From: Clostridia bacterium
GTDB taxonomy: Bacteria > Bacillota > Clostridia > Oscillospirales > Acutalibacteraceae
NCBI GenBank assembly: GCA_017503785.1
Contig: JAFVSK010000019.1
Span: 1 to 64,000 of the forward strand
Direction of reading: 5' to 3'
DNA: 64,000 bases
In this document: piece by piece, positions 35,358-64,000 of the stretch
Layout of the letters: each line of letters opens with the position of its first letter
How positions within the stretch are numbered: position 1 is the first letter of the stretch
Notes under the pieces: model-generated
Databases searched by the model: none
Told to the model about the DNA's origin: nothing
The model's input: only the letters and a program-made list of their open reading frames with translations
Program-made: the position numbers and the translations under genes

Positions 35358-36182
35358 TTATCTTTGCCACACGCGAATCCAGTCAATTTCAAGCGGATTG
35401 TTTTTGGCACCGCTGATGATAAGCGCCACAAACTGCTCGTTCATATACTCGTACACGCCCTCGAAAGGCTCACCGTGCTTGAATTTGGCGGGCGGCTCGA
35501 CGCGGCCGTTGTCAAAAATCTGACATACTGCATGCTCGCCGTCCAACCAGCTGTCCACAATACCCGTATCCCACAGGAACGTGAGCGTATGCCATTCGCC
35601 GTCGCTGAGTATTTGCGGAGCTTTGGCGTGTCCTGCCCAGTTACTGCCCGTAACACCGGAATCGTGCAACGTGGAGCGCTTCGTATGGTGGAACGTGGTG
35701 GTGTAATGTCCGCCGGGCCACGTACCGTCGTGCGTTCCCCAATATTCCATCCAGTCCATTTCCACCCATTCCAGCGCCGTATCGTAAATTTTATCGGGCG
35801 GGAACGACCAAATCGCCGGGCCTCCGCAATCAGGCTCGGTGTACTTAGTTTTATCCTCATAATAATGCGGAATACGGAACCGAAACTCCAGCACGCCCTT
35901 GTTAAACGTAAAGCCCTGCCGCGTGCGGGGATTGACCGTTGCAAGACCGTAGTTGTACAAGCTGTCATGCTGTTCGAGATACAGCACGCTGTTTTCAATG
36001 CGGAAATCGTCTTTTGTCAACGGCTTTGCACGAAACGGGCGCGTGGTATACCACTTGTAGCCGTAGGTGCCCTCGCCCTCCAGATCAATCGTATCGTAGG
36101 AGTCAAAATCGTCCTCAAACACCAAATGACGCATTCCGTACTTTTCAGCGATCTCAGGAATCGGAATGTTTTTCTTGTTCAT
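35358..36182 (-). CDS. GH16-like protein 1, no signal peptide
   Basis: A 274-residue single-domain GH16 (concanavalin-like) protein. The catalytic pattern ExDxxE is in WVEMDWMEYWG: E141, D143, E146. GGPAIWSFP (about 120-128) forms the usual aromatic substrate wall, and the chain ends NPLEIDWIRVWQ as in all copies here. The N-terminus (MNKKNIPIPEIAEKYG) shows no signal peptide, so it is probably cytoplasmic. It belongs with GH16-2 and the GH16 domains of the giants, which share the EMDWxEYWG form. The ATG at 36182 follows GGAGGG; 13 bases separate it from GH16-2. An 81-base stretch (35854-35934) is identical to GH16-2. Substrate unknown. Confidence 0.88.
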   Translation of the reverse strand: MNKKNIPIPEIAEKYGMRHLVFEDDFDSYDTIDLEGEGTYGYKWYTTRPFRAKPLTKDDFRIENSVLYLEQHDSLYNYGLATVNPRTRQGFTFNKGVLEFRFRIPHYYEDKTKYTEPDCGGPAIWSFPPDKIYDTALEWVEMDWMEYWGTHDGTWPGGHYTTTFHHTKRSTLHDSGVTGSNWAGHAKAPQILSDGEWHTLTFLWDTGIVDSWLDGEHAVCQIFDNGRVEPPAKFKHGEPFEGVYEYMNEQFVALIISGAKNNPLEIDWIRVWQR

Positions 36183-36195
36183 CTCACAGCCCTCC

Positions 36196-37020
36196 TCACT
36201 TCTGCCACACGCGGATCCAGTCAATTTCGAGCGGATTGTTTTTGGCACCATTGATGATCAGCGGCAGATGCTGCGTGTTCATCGGCGTGTAAATACCGGG
36301 CAATTCGGGATCGCCCGCGCGCACGTTTGCTTTCGGCTCGGTGATGTTATTTTCATAGCGCTGCACCACACTGGGCATGCCGTCAAACCAGCTTTGCATC
36401 ACACCCTCATCCCACAGGAAGGTCATGGTGTGCCATTCGGCATCCGTCAGGCAGCCCACGCCGCGGCGTTCGTCGTTGTTGGCCAAAAACGTCTGGCCTT
36501 GATGCATGGTATCGCGACGGCTATGATGCAAGGTGGTGGTGTAATACCCCTCGGGAAAGCGCCCGTCGTAGGTACCCCAATACTCCATCCAGTCCATTTC
36601 CACCCATTCCAGCGCCGTATCGTGGAGCTTGTCAATGGGGAACGACCAGATCGCCGGACCACCGCAATCGGGCTCGGTATACTCAGTCTTGTCCTCATAA
36701 TAATGCGGAATACGGAACCGAAACTCCAGCACGCCCTTGTTAAACGTAAAGCCCTGCCGCGTGCGGGGATTGTAGGTGCACAGGCCGTAATTGTATAAAC
36801 TATCGTGCTGTTCAAGATACAGCACACTGTTTTCAATGCGAAAATCGTCTTTTGTCAACGGCTTTGCACGAAACGCGCGGGTCAAATACCACTTGTATCC
36901 CTTCTCGCCGGTTCCTTGCAAATCAAAAGTGTCAAGCGACTCAAAGTCATCCTCAAACACCAACCGTGTCATCCCACGCTCCACAGCAATAGCCGGAGCC
37001 TGTATCTCCTTGCTCATCAT
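36196..37020 (-). CDS. GH16-like protein 2, no signal peptide
   Basis: A 274-residue GH16 protein, first of a two-gene unit with GH16-1. Catalytic residues are E141, D143 and E146 in WVEMDWMEYWG. It has the motifs KPLTKDDFRIENSVLYLEQ and NPRTRQGFTFNKGVLEFRFR in common with GH16-1, with near-identical DNA in places. No signal peptide. The start is either ATG at 37020 or the next ATG at 37017; GGAGG lies four or seven bases upstream. Substrate unknown. Confidence 0.88.
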   Translation of the reverse strand: MMSKEIQAPAIAVERGMTRLVFEDDFESLDTFDLQGTGEKGYKWYLTRAFRAKPLTKDDFRIENSVLYLEQHDSLYNYGLCTYNPRTRQGFTFNKGVLEFRFRIPHYYEDKTEYTEPDCGGPAIWSFPIDKLHDTALEWVEMDWMEYWGTYDGRFPEGYYTTTLHHSRRDTMHQGQTFLANNDERRGVGCLTDAEWHTMTFLWDEGVMQSWFDGMPSVVQRYENNITEPKANVRAGDPELPGIYTPMNTQHLPLIINGAKNNPLEIDWIRVWQK

Positions 37021-37064
37021 GGCACCTCCACCGTTGTTTTGACCGTCGAATTATTTACGGTTTC

Positions 37065-37093
37065 AGTAAATCACAAAAAACCGAAGAAGTCAA
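37065..37093 (-). promoter_or_regulatory. Promoter of GH16-2/GH16-1 (shared type)
   Basis: -35 TTGACT (37088-37093), 17-base spacer, -10 TTTACT (37065-37070) preceded by TGA. Confidence 0.55.
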
Positions 37094-37100
37094 CTCTTTA

Positions 37101-37138
37101 CACAAAAAAGCCACCTTTGCAAAGGTGGCCTTTTTTGT
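37101..37138 (-). terminator. Terminator after GH16-3
   Basis: Stem GCCACCTTTGCAAAGGTGGC with A and T tracts on either side, directly after the GH16-3 stop codon. Confidence 0.9.
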
Positions 37139-38014
37139 TTATTCTTTTTCCCACACGCGGATCCAGTCAATATCCATCGGCCACGCGCCGCGGCAACCCG
37201 TCGTAAGGATCTGCGGATCGTTATCAAAGATCGCATACGCGCCCTTCCACGGTGCATTTTTGTCGCCCGCAGCATAATACTCCAAGCTCGGCAGCGGCGT
37301 GGGGTCATCACGGTAGAAGTACTGCGGCTTATCCCACTCGTTATAGCGAATGGAATGCATCAGCTTGTTGTCCCAATACCAGGCCACGTGGCCCTTCTCC
37401 CACAACACGGCATAGGTGTGCCAGTCTTCGTCGATGTAGTCGAAATAATCGTTGTAGCCGCAGTTGTTGATCAAATTGGAAGCGTACACCGTTTTAACCT
37501 TACCTTCTTCGTCCTTAAAACGCTTCCAATCGTGCAACGAACCCGTGTAGATCGGATGCCCTTTATGGATCGCCACCATTTCAACAACGTCGATCTCGCC
37601 GCAATGCTCAAAGCCTTTCCCCATCCAGTTCTGCTTGGACAGAGTCCAAAAAGCAGGCCAGCAATGGGTTTTCTTTTGATAGGCTTCACCCGGGATCTTC
37701 ACGCGAATACGCGCTTCCAAATACCCGTATTGCATCGTGTAGCCCGTATCACCGCGCTTACTGTAGGAGCTGAAGCCGATCAGCGGCGAGCACATTTCCG
37801 GCTCCAGGTGCATCACCGATTCCTCGGGGAAGGTGAAGTCGGTTTCCTTCATGTCGGGCATGCCGAACGGACGGTCCAGATACCACGTATATCCGGCTTT
37901 GCCTTCACAGCTCAGATCAAACTGGCTCAAATCGTCAAAGTCGTCGGCCAGTGCCAGCTTGGTAAAGCCTGCCGCCTCAGCCGCCGCGGGAATGGGGGTG
38001 TTTTTAAAGCTCAT
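37139..38014 (-). CDS. GH16-like protein 3, no signal peptide
   Basis: A 291-residue GH16 protein. The catalytic residues are E140, D142 and E145 in CGEIDVVEMVAIH, after HCWPAFWTL (about 117-125). It contains SSYSKRGDTGYTMQYGYLEARIR, shared with GH16-4 and GH16-9, and the conserved FYRDDPTPLP loop. The N-terminus MSFKNTPIPAAAEAAG has no signal peptide. The ATG at 38014 follows GAGGAGG; the longer open frame upstream covers the promoter. It is transcribed alone. Substrate unknown. Confidence 0.88.
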   Translation of the reverse strand: MSFKNTPIPAAAEAAGFTKLALADDFDDLSQFDLSCEGKAGYTWYLDRPFGMPDMKETDFTFPEESVMHLEPEMCSPLIGFSSYSKRGDTGYTMQYGYLEARIRVKIPGEAYQKKTHCWPAFWTLSKQNWMGKGFEHCGEIDVVEMVAIHKGHPIYTGSLHDWKRFKDEEGKVKTVYASNLINNCGYNDYFDYIDEDWHTYAVLWEKGHVAWYWDNKLMHSIRYNEWDKPQYFYRDDPTPLPSLEYYAAGDKNAPWKGAYAIFDNDPQILTTGCRGAWPMDIDWIRVWEKE

Positions 38015-38117: not shown

Positions 38118-38139
38118 CCTCAAAAAGGGACAACCCTTA
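38118..38139 (-). terminator. Weak terminator candidate after GH16-4
   Basis: A short five-base-pair stem (AAGGG-TTGT-CCCTT) followed by TTT on the minus strand, overlapping the GH16-4 stop region. Much weaker than the other terminators of this cluster. Confidence 0.4.
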
Positions 38140-38970
38140 TTTCTGCCACACACGAATCCAGTCGATATCCATCGGCCACTCTCCACGGCAACCGTAAATG
38201 ATCACCTGCGGATCGTTATCCATCACCGAATGGGCACCCACCCAGCCCTGCTCCTCGGGCGGGCAGGGCAGCGGATCGGGATCGTCGCGGTAAAAATATT
38301 TCGGCACGTCGTCGGGTGTGTAGGTCACCGAATGCATCAGCTTGTTATCCAAATACCACGCCACACGGCCGGGCTCCCACAGTGCCGCGTAGGTGTGCCA
38401 ATCGTCGTCCAGAAAATCAAATTGATCGAGATACCCGGTGGAGTTTACAAAGTTGGTGGCGCAGTTTTGCGGGCTGCCGTGCCAATCGTGCAGTGTGCCC
38501 GTGTAGATAGGCTGACCGCCGCGAATGGCCACCATTTCAATGATATCCAGCTCGCCCAAATGCTCATAGGGCCATCCCATAATGTTCTGCTTCGACAAGG
38601 TCCAAAACGCCGGCCAGCAATGCACCTTTCGCTGATACGACGGACCGGGGATTTTGGCGCGGATACGCGACTCAATGTACCCGAACTGCATCGTGTAACC
38701 GGTGTCGCCGCGCTTGCTGTACGAGCTGATGCCGATCAGCGGTCGGCACATTTCCGGCTCCAAGTGCAGCACCGACTCCTCGGTAATGGAAAAATCCGAA
38801 GGCTTCATATCGGGCATGCCGTTCGGGCGGTCGATATACCAGTGAAACCCGGGCTTGCCCTCGCCCTTTAGGTCGATGGTATCCAGCGTGTCAAAATCAT
38901 CCGAAAAGGCCAAACGCGTATACCCGGCCGCCTCGGCGGCCGCAGGGATCGGGGTGTCTTTAAAACTCAT
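38137..38970 (-). CDS. GH16-like protein 4, no signal peptide
   Basis: A 277-residue GH16 protein, the closest relative of GH16-3. The catalytic residues are E140, D142 and E145 in LGELDIIEMVAIR, after HCWPAFWTLSKQN. It lacks the KDEEGK insert that GH16-3 and GH16-9 carry after HDW. No signal peptide (MSFKDTPIPAAAEAAG). ATG at 38970 with GGAGG upstream; the TTG two codons earlier is less likely. Transcribed alone. Substrate unknown. Confidence 0.88.
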   Translation of the reverse strand: MSFKDTPIPAAAEAAGYTRLAFSDDFDTLDTIDLKGEGKPGFHWYIDRPNGMPDMKPSDFSITEESVLHLEPEMCRPLIGISSYSKRGDTGYTMQFGYIESRIRAKIPGPSYQRKVHCWPAFWTLSKQNIMGWPYEHLGELDIIEMVAIRGGQPIYTGTLHDWHGSPQNCATNFVNSTGYLDQFDFLDDDWHTYAALWEPGRVAWYLDNKLMHSVTYTPDDVPKYFYRDDPDPLPCPPEEQGWVGAHSVMDNDPQVIIYGCRGEWPMDIDWIRVWQK

Positions 38971-39115: not shown

Positions 39116-40000
39116 TTATTTACCCCAAATGCGAACCCAGTCCACTTCCATGGGCCAGTTGTAGTTGCAACCGAGAATAATAACCTCTTCCTCACCGTCC
39201 ATCACGGAATGGGCACCCACCCAGGTGCGGTTGGCAGCCTCGGGATGCGCCTCCTCATAGCGCGGCAGCGGCGTAGGATCGTCGCGGTAGTAATACTCAG
39301 GCAGGGCATCGGTGCTGTAGCGCGCCGAATGCATCAGCCGGCCGTCGAGATACCACGACACGTGGCCCGGCTCCCACAACGCGGCATAGGTGTGCCACTC
39401 GTTGTCCAGCCAGCGGCGCTCCTTGTAGCCCAACGCGTTGATGAAGTTGGTGCCGCACGTTTGCACGGGAGCACCGTTCTCCTTCAGCTCGCCCGTGCGG
39501 TGATGGTGATGCAGCGTACCGGTATAGTAGTTGCGCGTTTTGCCCGTTTCAGGGTCCTCGCAACGCTCGATCTCCAAAATATCCAGTTCGCCGCAATCCT
39601 TCCAGCCCACCGGGTCGGTCTTGAGCATATCGCGCAGGCCGATGCCCCAAAACGCCGGCACACCGTTGTAGGTGCCTTCGGGCTCGTTCGCGCGAATACG
39701 CGCCTCGGCATAGCCGTATTTCATTACAAAGCCCGTCTTACCCTTGGTGCTGTAGGTCGGCATACCGATTGCCGCCGCACACTCCAAAGGTTTCATAAAC
39801 AGCACGGAATCCTTTATCTGCAGTTCATCCTTCGTCAGCGTAGACTTACCGTACGGACGATCGGTATACCACAAATATCCGGGCTTGCCCTCGCCGCTCA
39901 GATCAATGGTATCGTAGCTGTCGAAATCGTCGGCCAGCACCAGCTTGGTATAGCCGGCAGCCTCGGCTGCTGCAGGAATCGGAACGTTTTTAAAGCTCAT
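39116..40000 (-). CDS. GH16-like protein 5, no signal peptide
   Basis: A 294-residue GH16 protein, last of the GH16-7/6/5 unit. The catalytic residues are E138, D140 and E143 in CGELDILEIERCEDP. VPAFWGIG (about 114-121) precedes them. It shares the PTYSxKGxTGF and KYGYAEARIR pattern with GH16-6 and GH16-7, so these three form a subgroup. No signal peptide (MSFKNVPIPAAAEAAG). The ATG at 40000 follows GGGGGAG. Substrate unknown. Confidence 0.88.
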   Translation of the reverse strand: MSFKNVPIPAAAEAAGYTKLVLADDFDSYDTIDLSGEGKPGYLWYTDRPYGKSTLTKDELQIKDSVLFMKPLECAAAIGMPTYSTKGKTGFVMKYGYAEARIRANEPEGTYNGVPAFWGIGLRDMLKTDPVGWKDCGELDILEIERCEDPETGKTRNYYTGTLHHHHRTGELKENGAPVQTCGTNFINALGYKERRWLDNEWHTYAALWEPGHVSWYLDGRLMHSARYSTDALPEYYYRDDPTPLPRYEEAHPEAANRTWVGAHSVMDGEEEVIILGCNYNWPMEVDWVRIWGK

Positions 40001-40014: not shown

Positions 40015-40875
40015 TTATTTTTGCCACACGCGAACCCAGTCCACATCTACGGGCCAATCGCGATGACCGCTCACAAACAGCACCATCTTATCGGTGTTCA
40101 TAATGGTATGCGCACCCGGCCACGCAGGGCGACCGTAATCCGGCCACACGTCCTCTGCCTTGGGCAGCGGTGTCGGGTCGTCGCGGTAGAAATATTCGGG
40201 CAGCTCGCCGTCGGCATAGCGTGCCGAATGCATCAGCTTGTTATCCAAATACCACGCCACGTAGTTTTCATCCCACAGTGCGGCATAGGTGTGCCAATCG
40301 TCGTCCAGCACGTCAAACTGATCTTGATAGCCCGTGGCGTTAATGGTGTTGGTGCAAAGCCGCGTCTGCGGGCTCTCCAAGCGGTTGTGATCGTGCAACG
40401 TACCGGTGTAGATCACGGCGTTGTCGATCTGATGCGCACGCACCGCCTCCAAAATATCCAACTCGCCGATGTGTTTCCACGGGCGGCCGGCCACGTCGTC
40501 AACACCCAAGGCCCAAAATGCCGGGATCTGACCGCGTACCACTTCGCCCAAGCCGCTCACCGGAAAGCGCATGCGCGCCTCGGCGTAGCCCTTGTTATAC
40601 ACAAAACCGGTCTGTCCCTTGCGGCTGTAGGTGGGCAGGCCCACGGCGGCACCCGCTCTTTCGGGGCGAATGGTCACCACCGAGTCTTTGATTACCAAAT
40701 CCTCTTTGGTGAGGGTGGGATTGCTGTACGGACGGTCGGCATACCAGTTATACCCCGGCTTACCCTCGCCGCTCATGTCGATGGTGTCGTAGGAATCAAA
40801 ATCATCCCAAAACACCAGCTTGGTCATGCCGGCAGCCTCCGCTGCCGCAGGGATCGGCACGTTTTTCAAGCTCAT
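40015..40875 (-). CDS. GH16-like protein 6, no signal peptide
   Basis: A 286-residue GH16 protein, middle gene of the GH16-7/6/5 unit, 14 bases from GH16-5. The catalytic residues are E138, D140 and E143 in IGELDILEAVRAHQ. IPAFWALGVDD lies just before. It carries an insert SGLGEVVRGQ near residue 107-116 that the others lack. No signal peptide. GGAGG precedes the ATG at 40875. Substrate unknown. Confidence 0.88.
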   Translation of the reverse strand: MSLKNVPIPAAAEAAGMTKLVFWDDFDSYDTIDMSGEGKPGYNWYADRPYSNPTLTKEDLVIKDSVVTIRPERAGAAVGLPTYSRKGQTGFVYNKGYAEARMRFPVSGLGEVVRGQIPAFWALGVDDVAGRPWKHIGELDILEAVRAHQIDNAVIYTGTLHDHNRLESPQTRLCTNTINATGYQDQFDVLDDDWHTYAALWDENYVAWYLDNKLMHSARYADGELPEYFYRDDPTPLPKAEDVWPDYGRPAWPGAHTIMNTDKMVLFVSGHRDWPVDVDWVRVWQK

Positions 40876-40890: not shown

Positions 40891-41766
40891 TTATTTCTGC
40901 CACACGCGGACCCAGTCCACTTCCATCGGCCAATTCTTGTTGCAACCAAGCACCAAAATCTCGTCGGCGGTTTCCATTACGTGATGGGCACCCTTCCAGG
41001 TGGTGTGCGCCAGCTGCGGATGTGTGGTCTCCTCAATACGCGGCAGCGGCGTAGTTTCGTCACGATGATAATACTGCGGCAGATCGGTGGCGTTGTAGCG
41101 CGCCGAGTGCATCATTTTGCCATCGAGGAACCACGCAACGTAGCCGGGCTCCCACAGCGCGGCGTACGTGTGCCACTGATCGTCAATGAACGTCCACTGG
41201 TCCAAATACCCGCAGTTGTTCACCCAGTTCGAAGCATACACCGTTTCATAGCGACCCTTTTCGTTGCGCTTGCCGGTGCGAAAATGCTCATGCAGCGTGC
41301 CGGTATAGATCTGCTGATCGTTGGGGCGCCCCTTCGGCACGTTTAACTCCACAATATCCAGCTCACCGCAGCGCTCCCACGGTTCGCCCATCATGTCCTT
41401 CTTTTCCATGCCCCAAAACGCGGGAACACCGTTGTAATCGCCCTTGGGCAGATCGGCGCGGATGCGTGCCTCGGCATAGCCGTAGCGCATGGTATAGCCG
41501 GTACGACCTTTTTTACTGTACGTCACCAAGCCGATGGCCGAGCCGCACTTTTCAGGGCAGAAGTACAACACCGAATCACGCATTTGGCATTCCTCGGGCG
41601 TTAAGGTCGGCATTGCATACGGACGGTCGGCATAAAAGCTGTAGCCCGGCTTGCCCTCACCGCTGAAATCAATGGCGGTTTCGGTTTCAAAGTCCTCGGC
41701 AAAAGTCAGCTTGGTAAAGCCGGCTGCCTCCGCCGCAGCGGGAATCGGAACGTTTTTAAAGCTCAT
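40891..41766 (-). CDS. GH16-like protein 7, no signal peptide
   Basis: A 291-residue GH16 protein, first gene of the GH16-7/6/5 unit. The catalytic residues are E135, D137 and E140 in CGELDIVELNVPKG, after VPAFWGMEKKD. It shares RTGYTMRYGYAEARIR with GH16-5. No signal peptide. AAGGAGG precedes the ATG at 41766. Substrate unknown. Confidence 0.88.
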   Translation of the reverse strand: MSFKNVPIPAAAEAAGFTKLTFAEDFETETAIDFSGEGKPGYSFYADRPYAMPTLTPEECQMRDSVLYFCPEKCGSAIGLVTYSKKGRTGYTMRYGYAEARIRADLPKGDYNGVPAFWGMEKKDMMGEPWERCGELDIVELNVPKGRPNDQQIYTGTLHEHFRTGKRNEKGRYETVYASNWVNNCGYLDQWTFIDDQWHTYAALWEPGYVAWFLDGKMMHSARYNATDLPQYYHRDETTPLPRIEETTHPQLAHTTWKGAHHVMETADEILVLGCNKNWPMEVDWVRVWQK

Positions 41767-41922: not shown

Positions 41923-42792
41923 TTATTTTTGCCACACGCGAACCCAATCCACGTCCATGGGCCATCCCTTGGATCCGCACAGCGACAACACGCTTTCCAG
42001 TGAATCAAACACCGTGTACGCACCCAGCCACGTGTTTTTGGCGAATTGCAGATTCTTTTCCTCCAACGTGGGCACGGGATGCGGATTGTTCCGGTAATAA
42101 TGCCGCGGCAGCTCATTCTCGCCAAATCGCACCGCATGCATTTCTCGGCCATCCATATACCACGCAATGTGTCCCTTTTCCCACAGCATACCGTAGGTGT
42201 GCCATTCCTCGTCTACGAATGTGAACCAATCGCGGTATCCGGTCGAATTTACTAAATTGCTGGCACGGCGAATAATGGGCTTCCCCTGTTTGTCGCGTTC
42301 CCAACTGCGCTGATAATGATGCAAGGAGCCCACGTAATACGGCCGTCGCTCACCGTTTTTATCCATGGTGCGCGGTGCCTGCATCACACAAAGAAGCCCG
42401 TTGTCGGCCCACGATTTCCCCAGAAAATCTGTCTTACCGATCATGTAAAGCAGCGGATGGTTCGCCTTAGGATCGGTCGGCTGCCCAAAGCGAACACGTC
42501 CTTCAACGTACCCGCCGCACAGGCTAAAGCCGCAATCACCCGTACTGCTGTATGAGGTGATCCCCATCGCACTCGAAGCCTTGATCCGCAAAAACGATTC
42601 GTCGGTGTGCCATTCCAGTTCCTCGGGGGTCATAGGCGGTCTCCCATAGGCGCGATCAATGTACCACAAAAATCCGGGGATGCGTTCGTTGTTGCTATCC
42701 ACCGTAGCCTCCGAGTCAAACTCGTCGGCAAATACCAGACGTTCCATTCCCGCTGCCGCAGCGGCCGCAGGAATCGGTATGGTGTTACTCAC
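41923..42792 (-). CDS. GH16-like protein 8, catalytic residues lost
   Basis: A 289-residue divergent member of the family. The position that reads GELDIVE in its neighbours reads GLLCVMQ here: the first Glu is L133, the Asp is C135 and the second Glu is Q138. The nearby PAFW is also changed to PLLY. The rest of the fold markers remain (GYVEGRVRF, EEWHTYGMLWEKGHIAWYMDG, PMDVDWVRVWQK), and the frame is intact with normal expression signals, so it looks like a maintained non-catalytic protein, perhaps sugar-binding. A GTG start at 42792 after GGGGGG is chosen; an ATG at 42831 lies at the expected transcription start. No signal peptide. Transcribed alone. Confidence 0.85.
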   Translation of the reverse strand: MSNTIPIPAAAAAAGMERLVFADEFDSEATVDSNNERIPGFLWYIDRAYGRPPMTPEELEWHTDESFLRIKASSAMGITSYSSTGDCGFSLCGGYVEGRVRFGQPTDPKANHPLLYMIGKTDFLGKSWADNGLLCVMQAPRTMDKNGERRPYYVGSLHHYQRSWERDKQGKPIIRRASNLVNSTGYRDWFTFVDEEWHTYGMLWEKGHIAWYMDGREMHAVRFGENELPRHYYRNNPHPVPTLEEKNLQFAKNTWLGAYTVFDSLESVLSLCGSKGWPMDVDWVRVWQK

Positions 42793-54236: not shown

Positions 54237-57200
54237 TTATTCCTCCTTGCGCTTGCGCGAAGCACCCACCACGGCACCGCTGAGCAGCAGGCCAATGGCA
54301 GCGATCGGCAACGCGCTCACCACGCCGGTCTCGGGCGTGGGCTGCGGATACGGATCCTCACCGTTCTTCAGCTTGTTCGCCGCCTCTAACAGCTCCTCAA
54401 AGGTAGGCTGCCCGTTTTCTTTCAGCAGCGCGTTGATCTCGGCTTTTCGCTCCGCAGTCAGGTACTGCCAATACTCGCCGCCGTCCAGCACGTACTGATA
54501 ATTCTCCTCGTTCACCGTCACAATGGGATCGCCCCAATCGTCGGTGCAGTAGTTGTTCCAGAAATTCTCGGCCGAAATATCCACAATGATCTCGGGCTGC
54601 TTGTCGTTGTCATCACCGCCCGGATTGGGGGTAATACCGCCGCCCTGGCCCTGCCAGATATGCACGTAATCCACCTCAAACGGCACTTCGGTCGAGCCGC
54701 TGAGATACAAGCACATGATCTGCTCGTTCATCGCGGTAAAAATACCGTTCTTCAGCTCACCCGTATTAACGCGCGGCAGCGGATTGGGGAAGCTGTCGGC
54801 ATCGTAGGTCTGTTCAAACACCTGCACGCCATCCATGTAAGCGCGCACGATGTTGTGATCCCACAGCCAGCCCAGCGTATGCCACTCTTTATCGCCCATC
54901 GCATCCACAGTCGGCTTGCCGTTGGTAAAGCCGGAGAGGGTTTCGCCGGTACTCGGATCCTTGGTGGTTTCATGCATGGAAACCGTCCAATAGCCGTTCG
55001 GATGCTGGGGAATGTTGCCCCAGAACTCCAGCCAGTCTGCTTCCACCCAGTGGTTGTTCTGGCCTTCGATCTCATACTGCTTCGTCAGCGGGAACGACCA
55101 CACAGTGGGGCCGCCGCCGTAGGTATCTTTCGGAGAGGGGATACGGCAACGCACTTCCAAGTAGCCCTTGTTCCAGGAGTAGCCGATCTGCGTATTCACG
55201 TCCACGGTCGTCAGCGTGATACCGTAGGTCGGCACCGGGTCGTGCAGCGTGAGAATACCGTTTTCCACGTCATAAGCATCGCGGGTTACGGTGGTAGCAC
55301 CCCATTGGCGGGTCACGTACCACTTGTAGCCGTCGTTGCCGGTCGCCGTGGTATCAATGCTGTTAACACTGTCAAATTCATCGCTGAAGGTCAGATCCGT
55401 AAAGCCGGCCTGCTGCGCCTGCTCGGGCGCTTCAAAGATCGTTTCGTTCACGCGCAGGTTCACCTGCTTGGCGTTGTTGGTGGTATCCAACTCCAGCACC
55501 GCCAGATCGGGGTTCACGCGGGCCGAAATGACCCAGTCACCCGTTTCGGCCGCCCACGGCGTATCGCTCATCACGATCACGGCTTCGCCCGTGTCGATCG
55601 GCGCATCTACCGTGCACTTCAGCGTTTGGATCGCCTTGCCGTTCTTACGCACCTCCACCGAGAAGGCCGTACCAACCGGCACCGTATCCGTACCCTTGTT
55701 GATCACCGTCACGGCAAACAACAGGTTGGTGCCGGGCTTCACCTGATAATCACCGCCGTCCCACACAATGGAATCCACAACGAAGTCGATCAGCGAAGCC
55801 TTTTCCGCCAGCACAACGTTTTCAATGTACACGTTGCCAAGGCCGGTAAAGGTCAGCACGGTGGTATCCGCCACCTCAGCACCCGTCTTAAACTCCACGA
55901 TACGCTTGATCCAGCGAGTCTCGCTGCCGGTGGTTTCCTTCACCAGCTCGGTCGTGCCGCTGGTCAGTGTCACGGTCGCCTTGCCGCCGGCTGAGCGATA
56001 GCGGTACAACAGCTGATACTCGGTATTCGGCTTCAAACCGGCAAAGCTCTGCGACAGCGTCGAACCTTCCACCAGCGCAGCCGCCTTGGAGTTCTGCGTA
56101 CCGATATCCGGTGCGAGTGTCACGTTGGTCATCGTCCAAGCATCGTTATCGCCGTCGAACGTGCCGTCCTCCACGTAGACCTCCTCGCCGCTCACGGTCA
56201 CCTTGCACGTCGCAGTCAAGCCGTTCTTGGTGGTAGCGGTAATCGTTGCCGTACCCTTACCAACGCCGGTCACCACGCCGTATTCCACGGTGGCAACGTT
56301 CTCGTCGCTGGAGGTCCACACGGTGCGGTTTACATCGCCGTTCACCGGCGTTGCCACAACTGCCAAATTCTCCGTGCGGCCGGGGATCAAGGTCAGCGTT
56401 TCCTTGTTCATGATCACGCTCGTTGCTTCCACACCGGAAGAATAGAGCCGCAAGCACATATTATCGATCACAGCCACCGAATCGCCCTGAGCATATACCG
56501 CAATCGACATATCCCAACCGGGATTCAAATTCATATCCGTAGGCGTGGTAAACACGCGCGATGCGTGCTGCCACTCGCCCGTCTTGCTCACGGTCAATTC
56601 GGGAGTTCTCAAGCCGATCGAGCCGCTCCACAGGCGTATATCCGTGTCCTCGGAGGTCAACAGATAATCAAACGAGATCTCATAGGTAGTCGCGGGAGTC
56701 AGCGGAAGCGCCAGCTTGTAGAAGGTGCTTTCCGTCTTGCCGGGCGTGGTATGCAGGATCTCATGACCCCAGCTGCCGTCCTTACCCACGCCTTCTTTAA
56801 TGTTGCCCAGCGGCGGCGTCCAGTTCAGCGTGCCGCTCTCAAAGTCGCCGTTCTGCAACAGATTGCCGTACTCGTTCACCGTAACGGTGGCGGTAGCGGT
56901 CTTGTTCTTCGTGTTCGTTACCGTAATGGTAGCGGTACCGCTGTCGGCGATCGCCGTTACCAAGCCGTTCTGGTCCACCGTCACAACACTCGTGTCAGAC
57001 GAAGTCCACGTCAGCTTGCCCATCACCGTGTCGGCGGGAATGGTGTTCACCTTCAGCGTCACCGATTCGTCGGGCAGCAGCTCCACCTTCGACGGTGCCA
57101 GCACCAGCTGCTCCGCTTCGGGCTGCTTGCACAACGTAATGTTGTCCACGTAGGTGTCGGTATCCACTGCCGACGTATGCTTCAGATAAAAGCTCCAGTT

Positions 57201-59858
57201 GCTGTTCATGTCGGGAGCCGCGCCGGTATCAATTACCACACGAAGCTCCTGCCAGTCCTCACTTGCCGTCGTGTTCCAGAAGGTTCTGCCGTCCTCAAAC
57301 GTCATATCGGTCACGGTAGAGCAACCCAAACGAATGGAGGCACCCTTGGTCCACAGCGACAGCACGTAGCGGCTGTTGGGCTGCAGATAATTCTTCAAAT
57401 GACCAACGTTCTTGAAATACGTAACGCTGTTCGCGTGATCCTTGCTGAATTTCAGCGCCGTGCTACCGTCAATACCGACACCGGCTTCTGCCGAAACACC
57501 CTCGCTCGGCAAATGATGGAACATCCCCGCCGCGCCCAACTCAATATCGCCGTTGGGCAGCAGGTTCGCAAATTCGCTCACCGTCACCGTCACCGAATCG
57601 CTCAAGCCGTCCTCGTTGGCAACCGTCACCGTAGCGGAACCGCTGTCGGCCACCGCCGTTACCACACCGGCGTTATCCACCGTCACAATGCTCGTGTCCG
57701 ACGACGTCCACGTCAGCGTGCCACAGTCGCCACCCACGGGCGTTTCGTTCATCGACAGCGTGATCGTGCCGTTGGGAACCACCTGCACGTCACCCTGCGG
57801 AATGGTAAATGCCGTTGCCTTCGCCACCACCGTCACGGTGCAGGAAGCCGTCAGCGTGCCGCTGGTAGCGGTAATCGTCGCCGTACCCTCGGCCACCGCC
57901 GTCACCACACCGTTTTCCACGGTAGCAACAGCCGCATTGCTCGTCGACCAAACGATCGCTTCAGCCGGAGCGCCCACCGGCTTGGTGGTCGCCGTCAGCG
58001 TATCCGTCTTGCCGGTCTTCAAGGTCAGTTCTGTCTTATCCAGTTCAATAGAGGTAGCCGGTGCAGGCTCGCCCACCGTCACCACGCAGGTCGCCGTCAG
58101 GCTACCGCTGGTGGCGGTGATGGTGGCGTTGCCCGACGCTACGGCCGTAACCTTACCGGTCTGATCCACCGTCGCCACCGTTTCGGCATCACTGCTCCAC
58201 ACGATCGCCTGCGCATACGCACCTTCGGGCGCCGTGGTCGCCGTCAGCGTTTCGCTGTCGCCGATCTCCATATCCAAGGTGGTCTTGTTCAGCGTCAAGG
58301 ACGTAGCGCTTTCCATCTCATACAGCGCCACATCGTCCAGATACACCTCGCCCACCGTCTTAAAATCAATCGTGTAGTTGGGATTAAGGCTCGTCGTCGT
58401 GCGGAAATACATCGTCACGGTCTTCCACGCAGCCGAAGCGGCCGTCGGCTCGCCCTCAACCGCGATCAGCGTAGCACGGGTCGTATCCGCTTTCGGATTC
58501 GTCGTACCGGTTCCTTTCTGACGATAGGTCAGCTTATACACGGTTTCCGCTTTAAAGTAGGTGTTGGTCTTTGTGCTGCTGTTCGCCGCCTCCGTGCAGC
58601 GAATATCGGGGTACAGATACACCTGTCCGTTTGCGGTCATCTTCAGCACATTGTTGGTCGCATCATCGGGATCGGCAACCAACTCGCCGCCGTCGTAGAA
58701 CAAACCGTCGTAGGAAATACCGTTCAGTTCCTGGCCCTGTACATCCATCGAACCGCCGTTCACCAGATTCAGCGTGCTTTCTGCCACCGGGCCCAGGTTC
58801 TCCACCGTCACGTCGTCGAGATCCATTCCCACCGTGGAATGTGCCGCAACCATACCGAATTGCAGCACCACCTTCGTGGTCGCGGTCTTGGCGCGGCCAT
58901 ATACGGTGTAAGTGAACCACTCACCGTCACTGTTGGCCTTCGTTTCCGAGGTTGAGATCGACCAATACGGTGCCGCATAGCCGGTAAACATGCCACCCTG
59001 CCAGTTCATCACCAAGCGCGCCTTACCCGCTTGGTTCTTGCGCACACGGAACGTCACCTTCACCCAATCGCCCACGGCAAACGTGCCCTCGGCATTCGGA
59101 CTGGTAATCACCGAACCATCCACCGGGATCTGTACGTACTTATTGTTGCTGTCTGCGCTGTCGGTCTGCACCGCCAGCTCGTTTTTCGCCGCATCCTTCC
59201 AGCCCGAAGCCGCCGCGTTGAAATCGCTGTTCGGCATCAGCTGTGTAACGGTATCGTCGTTGTCGTCACCGCCCCCAAGCTCGCTCTTTTTCACCAGCTT
59301 GAAGTTGTCAAAATACGCCGCACCCGTGCCGTAACTGCTGGCATTGGCGTAATGCACGTGCGCCGGAGCCCACTCCCAGTTGGTTTGCGCGTTCATGTTT
59401 GCCGTCTCGCCCGTGGTAAACTCAATGGTATGCGTTGTCCAGTCCTCCACGTTCGGCAGATTCACGTCTGCCCAGCCGGTCCAGTCAGAACCGCCGCGCG
59501 TAATATCAAACTTGGCAAAGCCCTTACCCTCGTGCTTGTAATCAAAACTAAACACGTAGGTGGTGTTCGCCTCCAACACGGCGTTAAACGGTGCCTTGTA
59601 ATACGGGCCGGGCCACACGGCAGAATCGCCCTCGTTCACCGTCGTTTCAATTTTAATACCGCGGCTGCCATCGACACCCACGCCATCCTGCACGAACGCA
59701 CTATTTCCCCAGCCCTGCGAAGCGTCGGCCTCCAGATCGCCGTTAACGATCAGATTCGTCGCCGCAGAGGTAGGCAACACCAAACCGGACACCGTGCAGG
59801 TGACCAGCAGTGTCAGCGCCGCCAAAAGCGATACCCATTTGCGCAAGCTTGTGTTCAT
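54237..59858 (-). CDS. Giant surface protein S2: CBM-like/Big2 repeats, CARDB, GH16, wall anchor
   Basis: A 1873-residue secreted protein. The signal peptide is residues 1-32 (MNTSLRKWVSLLAALTLL start, cleavage near SAA). Three CBM-like modules follow, then three Big2 domains in a row (about 540-780), then an alternating CBM/Big2 series and a CARDB-like domain at about 1350-1465. GH16 spans about 1475-1735 with E1606, D1608 and E1611 in WVEADWLEFWG. The C-terminal half has the same order as in S1 and S3: NFWNNYCTDDWGD domain, sorting signal TPETG, hydrophobic stretch and ASRKRKEE tail. The ATG at 59858 is chosen because AAAGGTGAGG lies between it and an earlier in-frame ATG. It heads a unit with GH16-13, -12 and -11. 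Substrate unknown. Confidence 0.9.
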   Translation of the reverse strand: MNTSLRKWVSLLAALTLLVTCTVSGLVLPTSAATNLIVNGDLEADASQGWGNSAFVQDGVGVDGSRGIKIETTVNEGDSAVWPGPYYKAPFNAVLEANTTYVFSFDYKHEGKGFAKFDITRGGSDWTGWADVNLPNVEDWTTHTIEFTTGETANMNAQTNWEWAPAHVHYANASSYGTGAAYFDNFKLVKKSELGGGDDNDDTVTQLMPNSDFNAAASGWKDAAKNELAVQTDSADSNNKYVQIPVDGSVITSPNAEGTFAVGDWVKVTFRVRKNQAGKARLVMNWQGGMFTGYAAPYWSISTSETKANSDGEWFTYTVYGRAKTATTKVVLQFGMVAAHSTVGMDLDDVTVENLGPVAESTLNLVNGGSMDVQGQELNGISYDGLFYDGGELVADPDDATNNVLKMTANGQVYLYPDIRCTEAANSSTKTNTYFKAETVYKLTYRQKGTGTTNPKADTTRATLIAVEGEPTAASAAWKTVTMYFRTTTSLNPNYTIDFKTVGEVYLDDVALYEMESATSLTLNKTTLDMEIGDSETLTATTAPEGAYAQAIVWSSDAETVATVDQTGKVTAVASGNATITATSGSLTATCVVTVGEPAPATSIELDKTELTLKTGKTDTLTATTKPVGAPAEAIVWSTSNAAVATVENGVVTAVAEGTATITATSGTLTASCTVTVVAKATAFTIPQGDVQVVPNGTITLSMNETPVGGDCGTLTWTSSDTSIVTVDNAGVVTAVADSGSATVTVANEDGLSDSVTVTVSEFANLLPNGDIELGAAGMFHHLPSEGVSAEAGVGIDGSTALKFSKDHANSVTYFKNVGHLKNYLQPNSRYVLSLWTKGASIRLGCSTVTDMTFEDGRTFWNTTASEDWQELRVVIDTGAAPDMNSNWSFYLKHTSAVDTDTYVDNITLCKQPEAEQLVLAPSKVELLPDESVTLKVNTIPADTVMGKLTWTSSDTSVVTVDQNGLVTAIADSGTATITVTNTKNKTATATVTVNEYGNLLQNGDFESGTLNWTPPLGNIKEGVGKDGSWGHEILHTTPGKTESTFYKLALPLTPATTYEISFDYLLTSEDTDIRLWSGSIGLRTPELTVSKTGEWQHASRVFTTPTDMNLNPGWDMSIAVYAQGDSVAVIDNMCLRLYSSGVEATSVIMNKETLTLIPGRTENLAVVATPVNGDVNRTVWTSSDENVATVEYGVVTGVGKGTATITATTKNGLTATCKVTVSGEEVYVEDGTFDGDNDAWTMTNVTLAPDIGTQNSKAAALVEGSTLSQSFAGLKPNTEYQLLYRYRSAGGKATVTLTSGTTELVKETTGSETRWIKRIVEFKTGAEVADTTVLTFTGLGNVYIENVVLAEKASLIDFVVDSIVWDGGDYQVKPGTNLLFAVTVINKGTDTVPVGTAFSVEVRKNGKAIQTLKCTVDAPIDTGEAVIVMSDTPWAAETGDWVISARVNPDLAVLELDTTNNAKQVNLRVNETIFEAPEQAQQAGFTDLTFSDEFDSVNSIDTTATGNDGYKWYVTRQWGATTVTRDAYDVENGILTLHDPVPTYGITLTTVDVNTQIGYSWNKGYLEVRCRIPSPKDTYGGGPTVWSFPLTKQYEIEGQNNHWVEADWLEFWGNIPQHPNGYWTVSMHETTKDPSTGETLSGFTNGKPTVDAMGDKEWHTLGWLWDHNIVRAYMDGVQVFEQTYDADSFPNPLPRVNTGELKNGIFTAMNEQIMCLYLSGSTEVPFEVDYVHIWQGQGGGITPNPGGDDNDKQPEIIVDISAENFWNNYCTDDWGDPIVTVNEENYQYVLDGGEYWQYLTAERKAEINALLKENGQPTFEELLEAANKLKNGEDPYPQPTPETGVVSALPIAAIGLLLSGAVVGASRKRKEE

Positions 59859-60000: not shown

Positions 60001-60035
60001 ACAAAGCAGCCGAGGCGGTGCCTCGGCTGCTTGTT
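60001..60035 (-). terminator. Terminator after giant S3
   Basis: Stem AAGCAGCCGAGGC / GCCTCGGCTGCTT with a three-base loop, then TGTTATTG on the minus strand, after the stop at 60044. Confidence 0.85.
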
Positions 60036-60043: not shown

Positions 60044-63000
60044 TTATTTTTTGCGTTTACGGCTTACCCACAGGCCGGCAGTGCTGAGAAGCATTGTCGA
60101 CAACAAGGCAGGTACCACCGTGGTCACACCGGTTGCCGGGCTGTCGGGAGCTTCACCCGAAGCGATCGCCAACGCCGCCGCCAACAATTCTTCAAAGGTC
60201 GGCTGCCCGTTTTCTTTCAGCTTCGCGTTGATCTCCGCCTTGCGCTCGGCAGTCAGGTAATCCCAATATTCGCCGCCGGCGAGAACGTTCAGATAGTTCT
60301 CCTCGTTCACGGACAGAATGGCGTCGCCCCAATCGTCGGTGCAATAGTTGTGCCAGAATTCCTCGGCAGGAATATCCACCACAAAGTCGCCGTCGCCGAT
60401 CTCTTCGTCGGTCTCACCGTCGTCGGGAGCCTGCACTTCGGCGTTGCCGCCCTGCCAAATGCGCACGTAATCCAGCTCTAACGGCTTGTCATACGCACCG
60501 GCAATATACAGGCACAGCTCCTGCTCGTTCATGTACGAGAACGCACCGATGTCGTTGAACTGATCGCCAACGCTGGTTCTCACCTTGCAGCTCGGAACGC
60601 CGTCGGCGCTGTAGGTGATGCGGAACACTTCCTCGCCGTCAATGTAAGCGATAACACCGTTATACGCCCACAGCCAGCCCATCACGTGCCATTCGCCGTC
60701 ACCCAAACCGTTCTGATAGGAGTTGCTGTTCACCTTCCACGACTCCTGCTCACCCGCATCGTTCTGCAACTGATCGTGCAGCGTAACGGTGTAGTAGCCA
60801 TCGGGGTACTGCGGCCATCTCTTCGTATCGCGGCCCCAATACTCGAGCCAGTCCATTTCGACCCACTGACGATTCTTGCCGGGACGCTCCAGCCACTTAT
60901 CGGTCGGGAACGACCAGATGGCGGGAATACCACCGGACATACCCTCCGCATATTCATGGCGGTTCGGGTACACGATGCGCAAGCGAGTCTCAAGATAACC
61001 GTAATGATAATCCCAACCCACACCGGTCACGGCATCCACCGTGCTCAGCGTGATGTTGAATACCGGCTTCTGATCGTGCAGGCTGATGATACCATCCTTC
61101 ACGGTGTAGCTGTTCGGCTGCACGGTACCGGCACCCCACGAACGGGTCACGTACCACTTGTAGCCGTCCTTACCGGTAGCATACATATCAATGCTGTCAT
61201 AGCTGTCGAACTCATCGCTGAAGGTCAACTCGGTCATTTCCATATCGGCAGCCTCTTTCGGAGCCTCCAAAATGGTTTCGTTGACACGCAGGTTCACCTG
61301 ATCGGTGTTGTTGGAGTCATCTAACTCCAGAATCGACAACGTCGGGTTTGCGCGGGCCGAAATGACCCAATCGCCCTTTTCAGCCTTCCAAGGCGTAGTC
61401 GCCATAACGATGATCGACTCGCCCGTTGTTACAGGCTCGGTGCAGGTGTGCTCCAGGGTCTGGAACACGTCGCCGTTCTTGCACAGATCGATCACGATCA
61501 CGGCATCCTTCAGCACCGGATCAACACCGATGTTGGTAACCGTAACCGCAAAGGTAAGCTCGGTGCCGGGCGTTACCTGATGGCCGCCGCCGACCCACAC
61601 AATGTCGTTCACCGTAAAGTCAATGAGCGATGCCTTCACAGCGATCACAACGTTATCAATGTAGATCGGACCGTTGCCCAGGCCGGTGAGCGTAAGCACC
61701 GTATCCTCGGCCACCGTTTCACCGGTGGTGAACTCAAACGTGAGGTTCGTCCACAGACTGTTCGTACCGGTTTCTTCCTTCACCAGCACGTTATCGCCGT
61801 TCTTCAGTTCAATTGCCGCCTTGCCGGAAACGGTACGATAGCGGATAAACAGCTGATACGGCGTATCGGCCTCTAAGCCCTTGAAGGTCTGGGTAATGGT
61901 CGCATCCTTCTTCAGCATACCGGCCTTGCTGTTCACGCGGCCCTCGCCGTCCACAATGGCGGCGTCGCCGGTGGTCTTCCAAACGTCGTCCTCGGTATCG
62001 AAGCTACCGTTGAGCACCAGCACCTCGTTACCGCTGACCGTTACCGTACAGGTAGCGCTCTTGCCGTTCTTGGTGGTGCCCGTAATGATCGCCGTACCCT
62101 TACCAACGCCGGTCACCACACCGTATTCCACGGTGGCCACGTTGTCGTCGCTGGAGGTCCAGGTCATATCGTTCAGATCGGCCTCAACCGGCGTGGCGTG
62201 TGCGGTCAACGCACCCGTACGACCGGGGATGAGGGTCAGCTTCTCAAGGCTCAGCTTGATGCTGTCGGCTTCCACACCGGAGGAATACTTTTTAATGGAA
62301 AGGTTATCAAACACAACCGGAGGATTACCGGTATTGTCACACACCAGCGAGAAATCCCAACCGGCATTCAGCTTCATATCGGTCGGCGTGGTAAAGATCT
62401 TCGTAACAGTCTGCCACTCTGCTTTACCCACCTTGAAATTACCCGACGAGAGCGAGAAGCCTAAATCATACGACCACGCACGCACCTCGCTGGAAGTCGA
62501 AGGTGCATAGTAATCCACCGAGAAAATGTAGGTGGTAGCCGGCTCCATCTTACCAACGAATGAGCCCTTGTAGTAATACGAAGTCCAGCCGCCGGTACCC
62601 TCGTGGGTCAGCTCAATACCGTAGCTGCCATCCTTGCCGATGCCGGGCTTCACGTTGGGCACGTTAGCCCAGTTGGTACCGCCCTGTTCAAAATCGCCGT
62701 TGCTGAGCACGTTGGCGTTTTCGGTGATGACCACCTTCGCCGTAGCGCTCTTGCCCTTGTCGTTGGTAACGGTAATGGTCGCCTCGCCCGAAGCCTTCAG
62801 CGCCGTTACGTTACCCTTCTGGTCGACCTCAACCACCGAAGGATCGCTGCTCGACCACGTGATCACACCGGTGCTGGCACCGATGGGACTGGTAGTCACC
62901 GACAGCAGGCCCTTGTCGTTCGGTAACAGCTCCAGCGTTTCGGGAGCAATGGCGATGGAATCGGCATGGACGACCTTGCCCACCTCAACCAGCTTGAAGT

Positions 63001-64000
63001 TATCAAACCACGAGGTGCCTTCGCCCTGGCCCTTGTCGTAATACTGCACCTGGCGCATCTGCCATTCCCAACCGGTATTGGCGTTCGGCATTGCCGACGG
63101 CGTGGAGAAGGTGTAGCTCATCGTCTTCCAATCCACCGTGCCGCTGGCCAGCGCAATGTTCTTCAGCTCAGCGCCGTTCTCCAGCTTACCGGGAGAAATG
63201 TTAAACACAACCTGACCAAAGCCCATACCCTCGTGCTTGTAATCGAAGCTGAAGGTATAAATGGTATCCGGCTCCAGCGCCGCAATGATCTTATCCAGAT
63301 AGTACACGCCGGGAGTCTGATGAGTGGTAGTGGTTTCGTCCACCTTCGTGGTCAGCTTCAGACCGGCGCCTTCCTTACCGGCATCCGCTTGGATCTTATC
63401 CTTTTGACCTTGGTCACGGCCCCAGGCATCGGTGCCGTTTGCAAAATCGCCGTTAATGATGATATTACCATCATCCGGAATAACCGTCACAACGCAGGTG
63501 GCGGTCAGTGCGCCGTAGGTAGCCGTAATGGTAGCCGTGCCCGCGGCAACAGCCGTGACCACACCGTTAACAACCGTCGCTACGTTGTCGTCGGAAGAAC
63601 TCCAGGTAATCACCGGAGGCTCCGCATTTTCGGGCTCGGAAGTGGCCACCAGCGTGGTGGTCTGGGTAGGCTTCAACTTTGCCGTCGTCTTATCCAGCTT
63701 AATGGCGGTTGCGGGAACCACAACCTTTTCCACCAGCTTAAAGTTATCAAAGTAACCGGCACCGGTACCGGGTGTCGCCGAATATTGCACGCGCTCTGCA
63801 GCCCATTCCCAACCGGTATTGGAAGCCATGTTGGCCGTCGCACCGGTGGTGAACTCCACGGTGTAGGTAGTCCAATCCGCAGCGTTCAGATTGGTCATCG
63901 TTGCCCAACCGGTCCAGTCGGAGCCCTTCGTCAGAACGTTGATACGGGAGAAGCCCTTACCCTCGCTCTTATAATCAAAGCTGAAGATATACTTCGTGTT
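60044..64000 (-). CDS. Giant surface protein S3, N-terminus beyond right edge
   Basis: The visible 1318 residues run to the right edge in frame with no start; the first internal Met is at 63898. In order: the end of a CBM-like module, Big2, a module starting NGDFANGTDAW, Big2, a module starting NGDFEQGGTNW, Big2, a module starting NGSFDTEDDVW, a CARDB-like domain and GH16 with the ExDxxE pattern intact in WVEMDWLEYWG (about nt 60840-60870). Then the EFWHNYCTDDWGD domain, sorting signal SPATG, a hydrophobic stretch and the tail SRKRKK. Its C-terminal half is collinear with S1 and S2. The signal peptide is presumably outside the window. Followed by a terminator. Substrate unknown. Confidence 0.9.
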   Translation of the reverse strand, partial: NTKYIFSFDYKSEGKGFSRINVLTKGSDWTGWATMTNLNAADWTTYTVEFTTGATANMASNTGWEWAAERVQYSATPGTGAGYFDNFKLVEKVVVPATAIKLDKTTAKLKPTQTTTLVATSEPENAEPPVITWSSSDDNVATVVNGVVTAVAAGTATITATYGALTATCVVTVIPDDGNIIINGDFANGTDAWGRDQGQKDKIQADAGKEGAGLKLTTKVDETTTTHQTPGVYYLDKIIAALEPDTIYTFSFDYKHEGMGFGQVVFNISPGKLENGAELKNIALASGTVDWKTMSYTFSTPSAMPNANTGWEWQMRQVQYYDKGQGEGTSWFDNFKLVEVGKVVHADSIAIAPETLELLPNDKGLLSVTTSPIGASTGVITWSSSDPSVVEVDQKGNVTALKASGEATITVTNDKGKSATAKVVITENANVLSNGDFEQGGTNWANVPNVKPGIGKDGSYGIELTHEGTGGWTSYYYKGSFVGKMEPATTYIFSVDYYAPSTSSEVRAWSYDLGFSLSSGNFKVGKAEWQTVTKIFTTPTDMKLNAGWDFSLVCDNTGNPPVVFDNLSIKKYSSGVEADSIKLSLEKLTLIPGRTGALTAHATPVEADLNDMTWTSSDDNVATVEYGVVTGVGKGTAIITGTTKNGKSATCTVTVSGNEVLVLNGSFDTEDDVWKTTGDAAIVDGEGRVNSKAGMLKKDATITQTFKGLEADTPYQLFIRYRTVSGKAAIELKNGDNVLVKEETGTNSLWTNLTFEFTTGETVAEDTVLTLTGLGNGPIYIDNVVIAVKASLIDFTVNDIVWVGGGHQVTPGTELTFAVTVTNIGVDPVLKDAVIVIDLCKNGDVFQTLEHTCTEPVTTGESIIVMATTPWKAEKGDWVISARANPTLSILELDDSNNTDQVNLRVNETILEAPKEAADMEMTELTFSDEFDSYDSIDMYATGKDGYKWYVTRSWGAGTVQPNSYTVKDGIISLHDQKPVFNITLSTVDAVTGVGWDYHYGYLETRLRIVYPNRHEYAEGMSGGIPAIWSFPTDKWLERPGKNRQWVEMDWLEYWGRDTKRWPQYPDGYYTVTLHDQLQNDAGEQESWKVNSNSYQNGLGDGEWHVMGWLWAYNGVIAYIDGEEVFRITYSADGVPSCKVRTSVGDQFNDIGAFSYMNEQELCLYIAGAYDKPLELDYVRIWQGGNAEVQAPDDGETDEEIGDGDFVVDIPAEEFWHNYCTDDWGDAILSVNEENYLNVLAGGEYWDYLTAERKAEINAKLKENGQPTFEELLAAALAIASGEAPDSPATGVTTVVPALLSTMLLSTAGLWVSRKRKK

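Follow-up and report, generated by a model that had tools for sequence, protein, structure and literature searches.

The GH16 array

We analysed a 64,000-nucleotide stretch (the window) of a contig from an uncultured gut Clostridia bacterium and describe here an array of genes of the glycoside hydrolase 16 (GH16) type that fills its right part. The contig, C31, belongs to a 2.06 Mb metagenome-assembled genome (MAG) of 64 contigs with 6% contamination (G000). Sixteen GH16-type modules lie within 35,358–64,000, all on the minus strand, 13 as standalone genes and three in giant proteins, and both this count and the one-strand tandem arrangement agree with an earlier note on the same DNA. The giants are exported proteins (a signal peptide, repeats of carbohydrate-binding and Ig-like type, a single GH16 and a membrane segment at the C-terminus), alternating along the array with stretches of leaderless GH16 genes, that is, genes whose products lack a recognisable N-terminal export signal.

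The 13 standalone genes share a conserved start like MSFKNVPIPAAAEAAG and, counted from it, are 274–298 codons long; several predicted open reading frames (ORFs) start too far upstream, the conserved Met lying further inside. At the left end of the array, 35358..36182 (carrying WVEMDWMEYWG, with a possible ORF start at 36251) and 36196..37020 resemble the modules of the giants and are called giant-type, while most of the others are of a second kind, type I: 37139..38014 (motif GEIDVVE, in a longer ORF reaching 38092), 38137..38970, 39116..40000, 40015..40875, 40891..41766, 42995..43870 and 43886..44752, the last with the top PF00722 score in the genome. Sister copies of 39116, 40015 and 40891 were found in a second species, G007, at L079:11389 (73% identical), L079:13185 (91%) and L079:14058 (93%). 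Within this run lies 41923..42792, which has a GTG start and in which the catalytic E, D and E are replaced by L, C and Q. Beyond the first giant come three further type I genes, 51614..52480, 52483..53334 (2 nucleotides to either neighbour) and 53337..54233 (neighbour gaps of 2 and 3 nucleotides).

The first giant (44984..51331, 2115 residues) has a signal peptide, Big_2 repeats, a GH16 module at 45380–46210, a tail and a C-terminal membrane segment. The second (54237..59858, 1873 residues from the Met at 59858) likewise has a signal peptide, Big_2 repeats, GH16 at 54648–55460 and a C-terminal membrane segment. The third (60044..64000, GH16 at 60449–61294) continues past the window edge, so that its N-terminus is off-window; its signal peptide lies on an overlapping contig, C48. 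C31 and C48 share 1,698 bases at their right ends, at 99.94% identity. The start of the giant gene 60044 appears to fall on C48, where a further GH16 giant is found immediately upstream; the array therefore extends beyond the window into this C48 giant, its 17th module. CBM_4_9 and Big_2 domains were found in both the third giant and the C48 giant, and CBM_4_9 was not matched at 1e-3 in giants 44984 and 54237. All three window giants share a tail (YCTDD.GD...NEENY...ERKAEINA...NGQP) ahead of the C-terminal membrane segment, for which there was no Pfam match at 1e-3.

GH16 membership and sequence types

Searches with hmmscan matched PF00722 at E ≤ 1e-3 in 8 of the 10 standalone proteins tested, missing 35358–36182 and 36196–37020; the remaining three standalones were matched in a genome search, and the three window giants gave no match at 1e-3. 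We therefore also used profiles of our own. Alignment A1 comprises 26 modules aligned over their full length, all 16 window modules among them, and PF00722 matches 23 of these 26 at E ≤ 0.1. The A1 profile finds solved GH16 structures with E down to 3.7e-15, and a profile built from 16 giant-type modules alone finds GH16 at 1.3e-7. By these matches to solved enzymes the family falls within GH16, and not outside it or clan GH-B, the outcome that the earlier note had named as fatal to its reading.

The catalytic motif ExDxxE, which the earlier note had counted in 15 of the 16 modules, is indeed kept in that number (as EADWLE in the module of giant 54237), the exception being 41923–42792. Across the four genomes of the genus that carry the family, the catalytic triad is kept in 33/35, 28/28, 8/8 and 3/3 modules. 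Two copies have lost catalytic residues, 41923–42792 (LCQ for EDE) and L011:17567–18517 (EVE for EDE); in both the frame is open, and both sit on long tree branches. The C-terminus of the type (P)(M/L)(D/E)(I/V)DW(I/V)R(V/I)W, earlier thought to be universal, is true of most standalones but not of the giants, which carry DYVHIW or DYVRIW instead and in which, as read from the sequence, the GH16 module is followed by the tail and membrane segment and so is not C-terminal. The standalone protein 43886–44752 ends in LYCDWVRIW.

Type I modules have the motif GELDxxE and an insert of about 30 residues (YFYRDDPTPLP...), and giant-type modules carry WVEMDWxEYWG. Like GH16 subfamily 3, as described in the passages of PMC6827312 consulted (here and below, cited papers served as sources in part), the family has ExDxxE and the conserved His, which is present in 35/35 modules of the genome, and its top solved matches are mostly laminarinases or mixed-linkage glucanases; type I also keeps the PAxW Trp (34/35 genome modules) and an aromatic residue five before the nucleophile. 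It differs from that subfamily in the type I insert, in the giant-type motif and in an incomplete WPA...WXX...WPX pattern, of which the first W and the P of WPX are often absent.

Extent and distribution of the family

A profile search of the window genome returned 36 matches, 35 of which span 264 or more of the 277 profile positions; the 36th, a 20-residue piece at a contig end, was excluded. PF00722 alone undercounts the family, with 21 genome matches vs 35 modules. The 35 modules lie on nine contigs (C31, 16; C28, 6; C34, 4; C48, 3; C37, 2; C27, C30, C41 and C43, 1 each), and the genes holding them amount to about 74 kb, or about 3.6% of the assembly (gene lengths being approximate).

The family is present in four of nine genomes of the genus, with 35 (window genome), 28, 8 and 3 modules, and is absent from the other five, one of which is 99% complete. 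The 28-module genome, G007, is a second species (83% complete, 1% contamination) matched to RGIG9064, a MAG from water deer rectum; G008 corresponds to RGIG3162, from goat rectum, and G001 to RGIG9414, from yak cecum. The order of the GH16 cluster and its neighbours is repeated in G007.

Of 300 genomes of the taxonomic family, with no more than 8 candidates scored in each, 12 passed E 1e-12: three belong to the genus (177–392 bits), and the other nine reach 70 bits or less; only genus members exceeded 71 bits. Of 398 genomes sampled from the phylum, again with no more than 8 candidates scored in each, 46 had any PF00722 match (window genome included); among the genomes listed only the window genome reached 8, and the highest count elsewhere was 5. 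The earlier claim of an unusual GH16 copy number thus holds within this sample. In the same order but another family, genome G027 (L097, L098, L099) has 17 weaker GH16-type matches of up to 60 bits, most of them in frames of about 960–1,760 residues, perhaps an independent expansion.

Outside these Clostridia, the best match in the scan was a Proteiniphilum SusC/D locus (L042) with four relatives, at 31% identity for the one found. Its GH16 groups with the pair of GH16 genes at an ABC importer described below (97/90, in a clade with long-branched rows); it differs in that its four GH16s look exported (one reassigned by hand), uptake is of the SusC/D type, and the partners are GH97 and GH29. 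Searches of plasmid records gave three records at 22–27% identity, and those of viral contigs 11 loci, the best by E-value at 26% identity, so that at the sensitivity of these searches there was no sign of a mobile origin. Among the open-access papers listed (titles, starts of abstracts and passages; supplements lay outside the search) we found no description of the array, and the passages of PMC8199421 and PMC11155115 available to us do not mention it.

Export signals

Bacterial GH16 enzymes are mostly exported, with few per genome. All 13 standalone proteins of the window, in contrast to this norm, lack an N-terminal hydrophobic stretch: counted from the conserved Met, the best 13-residue hydropathy mean is -0.1 to 1.34, and the two giants that lie wholly within the window reach 2.28 and 2.42 by the same measure. 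Applied to the whole genome with an export cut-off of 1.9, this rule scores 20 of the 35 modules as leaderless and 13 as exported; 2 were unscored, being in frames that are cut, and both start with a signal peptide on an adjoining or overlapping stretch. Two rows, L042_15794 and L095_1, each with a hydrophobic N-terminal stretch, were reassigned by hand. Leaderless copies are present in three species. The absence of export signals from the standalone enzymes is a point not in the earlier note, and it changes the likely mechanism.

The 84 modules that we placed on an unrooted tree comprise 74 of the genus and 10 of the 25 outgroup rows found; 14 of the 84 rows were unscored for export. Between the 37 leaderless and 33 exported rows, 5 changes are needed. 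A single leaderless clade, a grouping tested after the tree was seen, was rejected (approximately unbiased test, p 1.1e-8). The leaderless rows form four groups. Type I is the first; the second is giant-type and takes in 35358 and 36196; the third is a pair next to an ABC importer, and the fourth consists of two proteins from goat rectum. The C27 member of type I reads as a lipoprotein. This pattern would fit repeated movement of GH16 from outside to inside the cell, the direction being inferred as the tree is unrooted.

The two goat-rectum proteins (L085:8970–10163 and 10181–11353) are adjacent and leaderless, with a CARDB-like domain before GH16 and AAGGAGG before the start; CARDB reached the Pfam cut-off in one of the two. 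By sequence, they look as if excised from an exported protein.

Age of the expansion

On the same tree 19 G000 modules each form a sister pair with a module of G007; bootstrap is 100 for 18 of these pairs and 96/22 for the remaining one. Most paralogues therefore predate the split of the two species, and judging from these sequences most GH16 copies are old and diversified before it. The clade of 37139, 38137, 42995 and 43886 (98/98) has no G007 member, which could reflect later duplication in the window genome or loss in G007, given that the latter is 83% complete. The ratio of nonsynonymous to synonymous substitution rates (dN/dS) was 0.04–0.24, with dS of 0.9–2.6, in ten pairs, namely seven sister pairs out of the 19, two pairs of paralogues, and 51614 with L079:16206, a further pair between the species; these values are rough but clearly below 1. 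Strong local amplification, as the earlier note had it, is thus partly right: the copy number is unusual and some later duplication is possible, but most copies predate the species split and the expansion is genome-wide. The finding is better termed an old, genome-wide GH16 expansion divided between exported giants and leaderless enzymes.

These comparisons also bear on two rival explanations. An artefact of assembly or binning, with contigs collapsed, duplicated or foreign, might be suspected in a contaminated MAG of this many contigs, in which giant genes are broken by contig ends and one pair of ends overlaps. However, the 16 window modules are 23–75% identical in pairs and hence are not duplicated reads, the contig of the array also carries purine and pyrimidine genes of similar GC, and a separate MAG of low contamination holds 28 modules, 19 of them in sister pairs with the window genome. 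The modules and pairs of the second species therefore disfavour such an artefact, which the earlier note had raised as a danger, and we regard it as very improbable.

We give equally little credence to the idea that the standalones are silent cassettes, donating sequence by recombination to the GH16 module of the giants. They do start and stop at about the boundaries of the giant modules, but start codons are present, a Shine-Dalgarno-like site was found by pattern in 12 of 13, and they are just 23–37% identical to the window giant modules. Moreover, several pair with counterparts in the other species and not with giants, and among the 20 of 33 repeat families listed there was no standalone–giant link.

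Neighbouring genes and an ABC importer

To the left of the array and on the same minus strand lie two GH20-type hexosaminidase genes (33288..35162 and 31296..33161), a GDSL-type esterase gene (30638..31294), a GH3 gene (28867..30504) and a GH31 gene (26647..28851), none with a signal peptide by reading. The best-scoring solved relative of the GH3 is a beta-glucoside phosphorylase, the second-best a beta-N-acetylglucosaminidase. For the GH31 it is the nigerose-specific LlGH31_u1 (7wj9); compared by eye, acid/base Asp394 and Gln343 are kept, and at the +1 subsite Tyr99 is L and His427 is F. Phe in the place of His427 also occurs in the alpha-glucosidase CtGII (paper on GH31_u1). In G007, genes for GH31, GH3 (two), an esterase, GDSL and GH20 come in this order ahead of a run of six leaderless GH16s, which a giant follows.

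Contig C48 has an SBP_bac_1 protein and two permeases (one by Pfam, one by reading) of an ATP-binding cassette (ABC) importer, next to two GH16 genes, one for a lipoprotein and one leaderless. A like GH16 pair with a solute-binding protein and permeases is found in G007, and in G008 an importer lies near a type I GH16; in both G007 and G008 the second ABC permease is under the Pfam cut-off. At L013, L083 and L086, from three species, a protein of about 1,000 residues, whose solute-binding domain is only C-terminal, occurs with ABC permeases beside GH16 genes.

Where and on what the enzymes might act

We consider it probable, with moderate confidence, that these genes form a two-compartment glycan-utilisation array on a genus-specific GH16 branch, in which surface giants cut, fragments are imported and cytosolic GH16s cut further. 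At the cell surface the giants and lipoprotein GH16s would cleave a polysaccharide, and large oligosaccharides would be taken up via ABC importers like the one found next to GH16 genes in three species. Many cytosolic endo-GH16s would cut the imported fragments further, each perhaps with its own linkage or decoration preference, and GH3, GH20, GH31 and the esterase would complete the breakdown. The division of labour over one complex glycan suggested in the earlier note may apply: dN/dS is 0.04–0.24 in the pairs compared, and the window modules are 23–75% identical. Leader status here rests on sequence, and import and internal action are inferred. More tentatively, and with less than even confidence, we propose that endo-GH16s moved into the cytosol several times independently to form a battery of about 20, such that long oligosaccharides would be imported and endo-cleavage be largely internal, with two GH16 branches of unreported specificity.

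The closest described arrangement is the mixed-linkage glucan locus of Blautia producta, where a cell-anchored BpGH16MLG with four CBM4 acts outside, products enter by ABC import and a signal-less GH3 acts inside (PMC10318527, in the part consulted). The array resembles it in its anchored GH16 with CBM4-type modules and its GH3 without signal peptide, and may share the ABC import, the importer genes lying beside other GH16 genes on C48 and in G007 and G008; it differs from it in having 35 modules, 20 of them leaderless, vs the one GH16 described there; also, the B. producta phosphorylase is a GH94, and PF17167 (GH94) had no match in the window genome.

As to the substrate, the aromatic residue five before the nucleophile is present in 23 of 24 modules of the type I clade. 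In BACCAC_02680 (nucleophile E143), W138 is the -2 platform for the beta-1,3 bond (PMC7419316, in part), and the type I aromatic appears to stand at the position of W138, which serves as such a platform in glucanases and O-glycanases alike. Our guess, from sequence, is a beta-1,3-containing glucan or N-acetylhexosamine (HexNAc)-glucan, e.g. of the fungal wall or a mixed glucan. Genome-wide searches for further glycan families covered GH94, BNR_2, sulfatase and GH29; they gave no BNR_2 sialidase match, two GH29 matches and two matches to the PF00884 sulfatase family, neither in the window, the one on C34 being a membrane protein by reading. The absences among these families would argue mildly against sulfated algal galactans and sialylated mucin. 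A carrageenan GH16_17 system was set aside on the same count of two PF00884 matches, none in the window, a locus of that kind having several sulfatases (PMC13168452, in the passages seen).

Several observations weigh against our proposal. With longer starts, 37139 (1.88) and L013:12700 (1.89) come near the export cut-off, and proteins without a leader can also reach the outside, through lysis among other routes. The ABC importer was not among the window genes scanned, its genes being on contig C48. NCBIfam models gave weak matches, far below cut-offs, to both glucanase and kappa-carrageenase. In the clade of the giants the -5 aromatic is absent in 43 of 46 modules, and a single substrate for all is therefore not implied; finally, GH20, GH31 and two GH29 genes point beyond plain beta-glucan.

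The point on exit from the cell could be taken further, with the leaderless enzymes acting outside after lysis or by a non-classical route in a shared public digest. Signal-peptide absence is sequence evidence only, and the lipoprotein type I relative on C27 indicates that the same fold can function outside. But the adjoining GH31, GH3, GH20 and GDSL genes are leaderless by reading as well, ABC importers stand beside GH16 genes, leaderless copies recur in three species, and the best-scoring solved relative of the GH3 is a phosphorylase, whose reaction suits the cytosol; we consider a public digest quite improbable.

Somewhat less improbable, though still unlikely, is a host-mucin system, in which the GH16s would be O-glycanase-like and cut poly-N-acetyllactosamine, and GH20 and GH31 would finish the HexNAc-containing chains. 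In its favour, two GH20-type genes adjoin the array, the genome has two GH29 genes, the second-best solved relative of the GH3 is a beta-N-acetylglucosaminidase, relatives come from ruminant rectum and cecum, and GH16 O-glycanases, endo-enzymes that have the -2 aromatic position in common with type I, occur in gut bacteria (PMC7419316). At the same time, those of the solved O-glycanases (6T2N–6T2S) that the A1 profile found score 24–31 bits (6t2n 31, 6t2o 26, 6t2s 26, 6t2p 24) vs 44–59 bits for 8va4, 5nbo and the best laminarinases. The O-glycanases described in the part of PMC7419316 consulted also differ in being nine over four species and drawn with signal peptides, and BNR_2 sialidase was not matched and only two sulfatase-family matches were found in searches that covered these among mucin families.

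The 35 modules of this 2 Mb genome, of which 20 are leaderless, together with a comparable second species, make the family a natural library of diverged endo-enzymes. Cytosolic cleavage as we propose it would let the system show what share of its polysaccharide digestion a gut Clostridia bacterium carries out intracellularly, and raises the question of which ruminant-hindgut glycan is complex enough to keep many paralogues under selection.

Transcription units and other genes

Terminator-like hairpins at 60032–60004, 44802–44777 and 39109–39081, together with the gaps of 2–3 nucleotides between 51614 and 54237, suggest that the array may be split into several transcription units. Terminator-like sites numbered 37 vs 21.9 (standard deviation, sd, 4.3) and 15 vs 19.0 (sd 4.4) in shuffles, exceeding them in the left half only, and promoter-like sites 17 vs 12.4 (sd 3.8) and 6 vs 9.6 (sd 2.9); on these counts we put little weight on single sites.

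Near GH16 loci in two species are proteins of 721–736 residues with a similar start (L015:14354–16561 and L080:12623–14785), without a Pfam family at 1e-3. On C34, a tandem of four leaderless GH16 genes is immediately preceded by two lipoprotein-like proteins of 537 and 550 residues (L074:8285–9895 and 10204–11853), likewise without Pfam families at 1e-3. Choline-binding repeat proteins, one of which has leucine-rich repeats of BspA type, occur on contigs with GH16 loci (1–1179 and L010:11982–13580). The left part of the window (1311–25721) holds ordinary lysine-type, folate, purine and pyrimidine biosynthesis genes.

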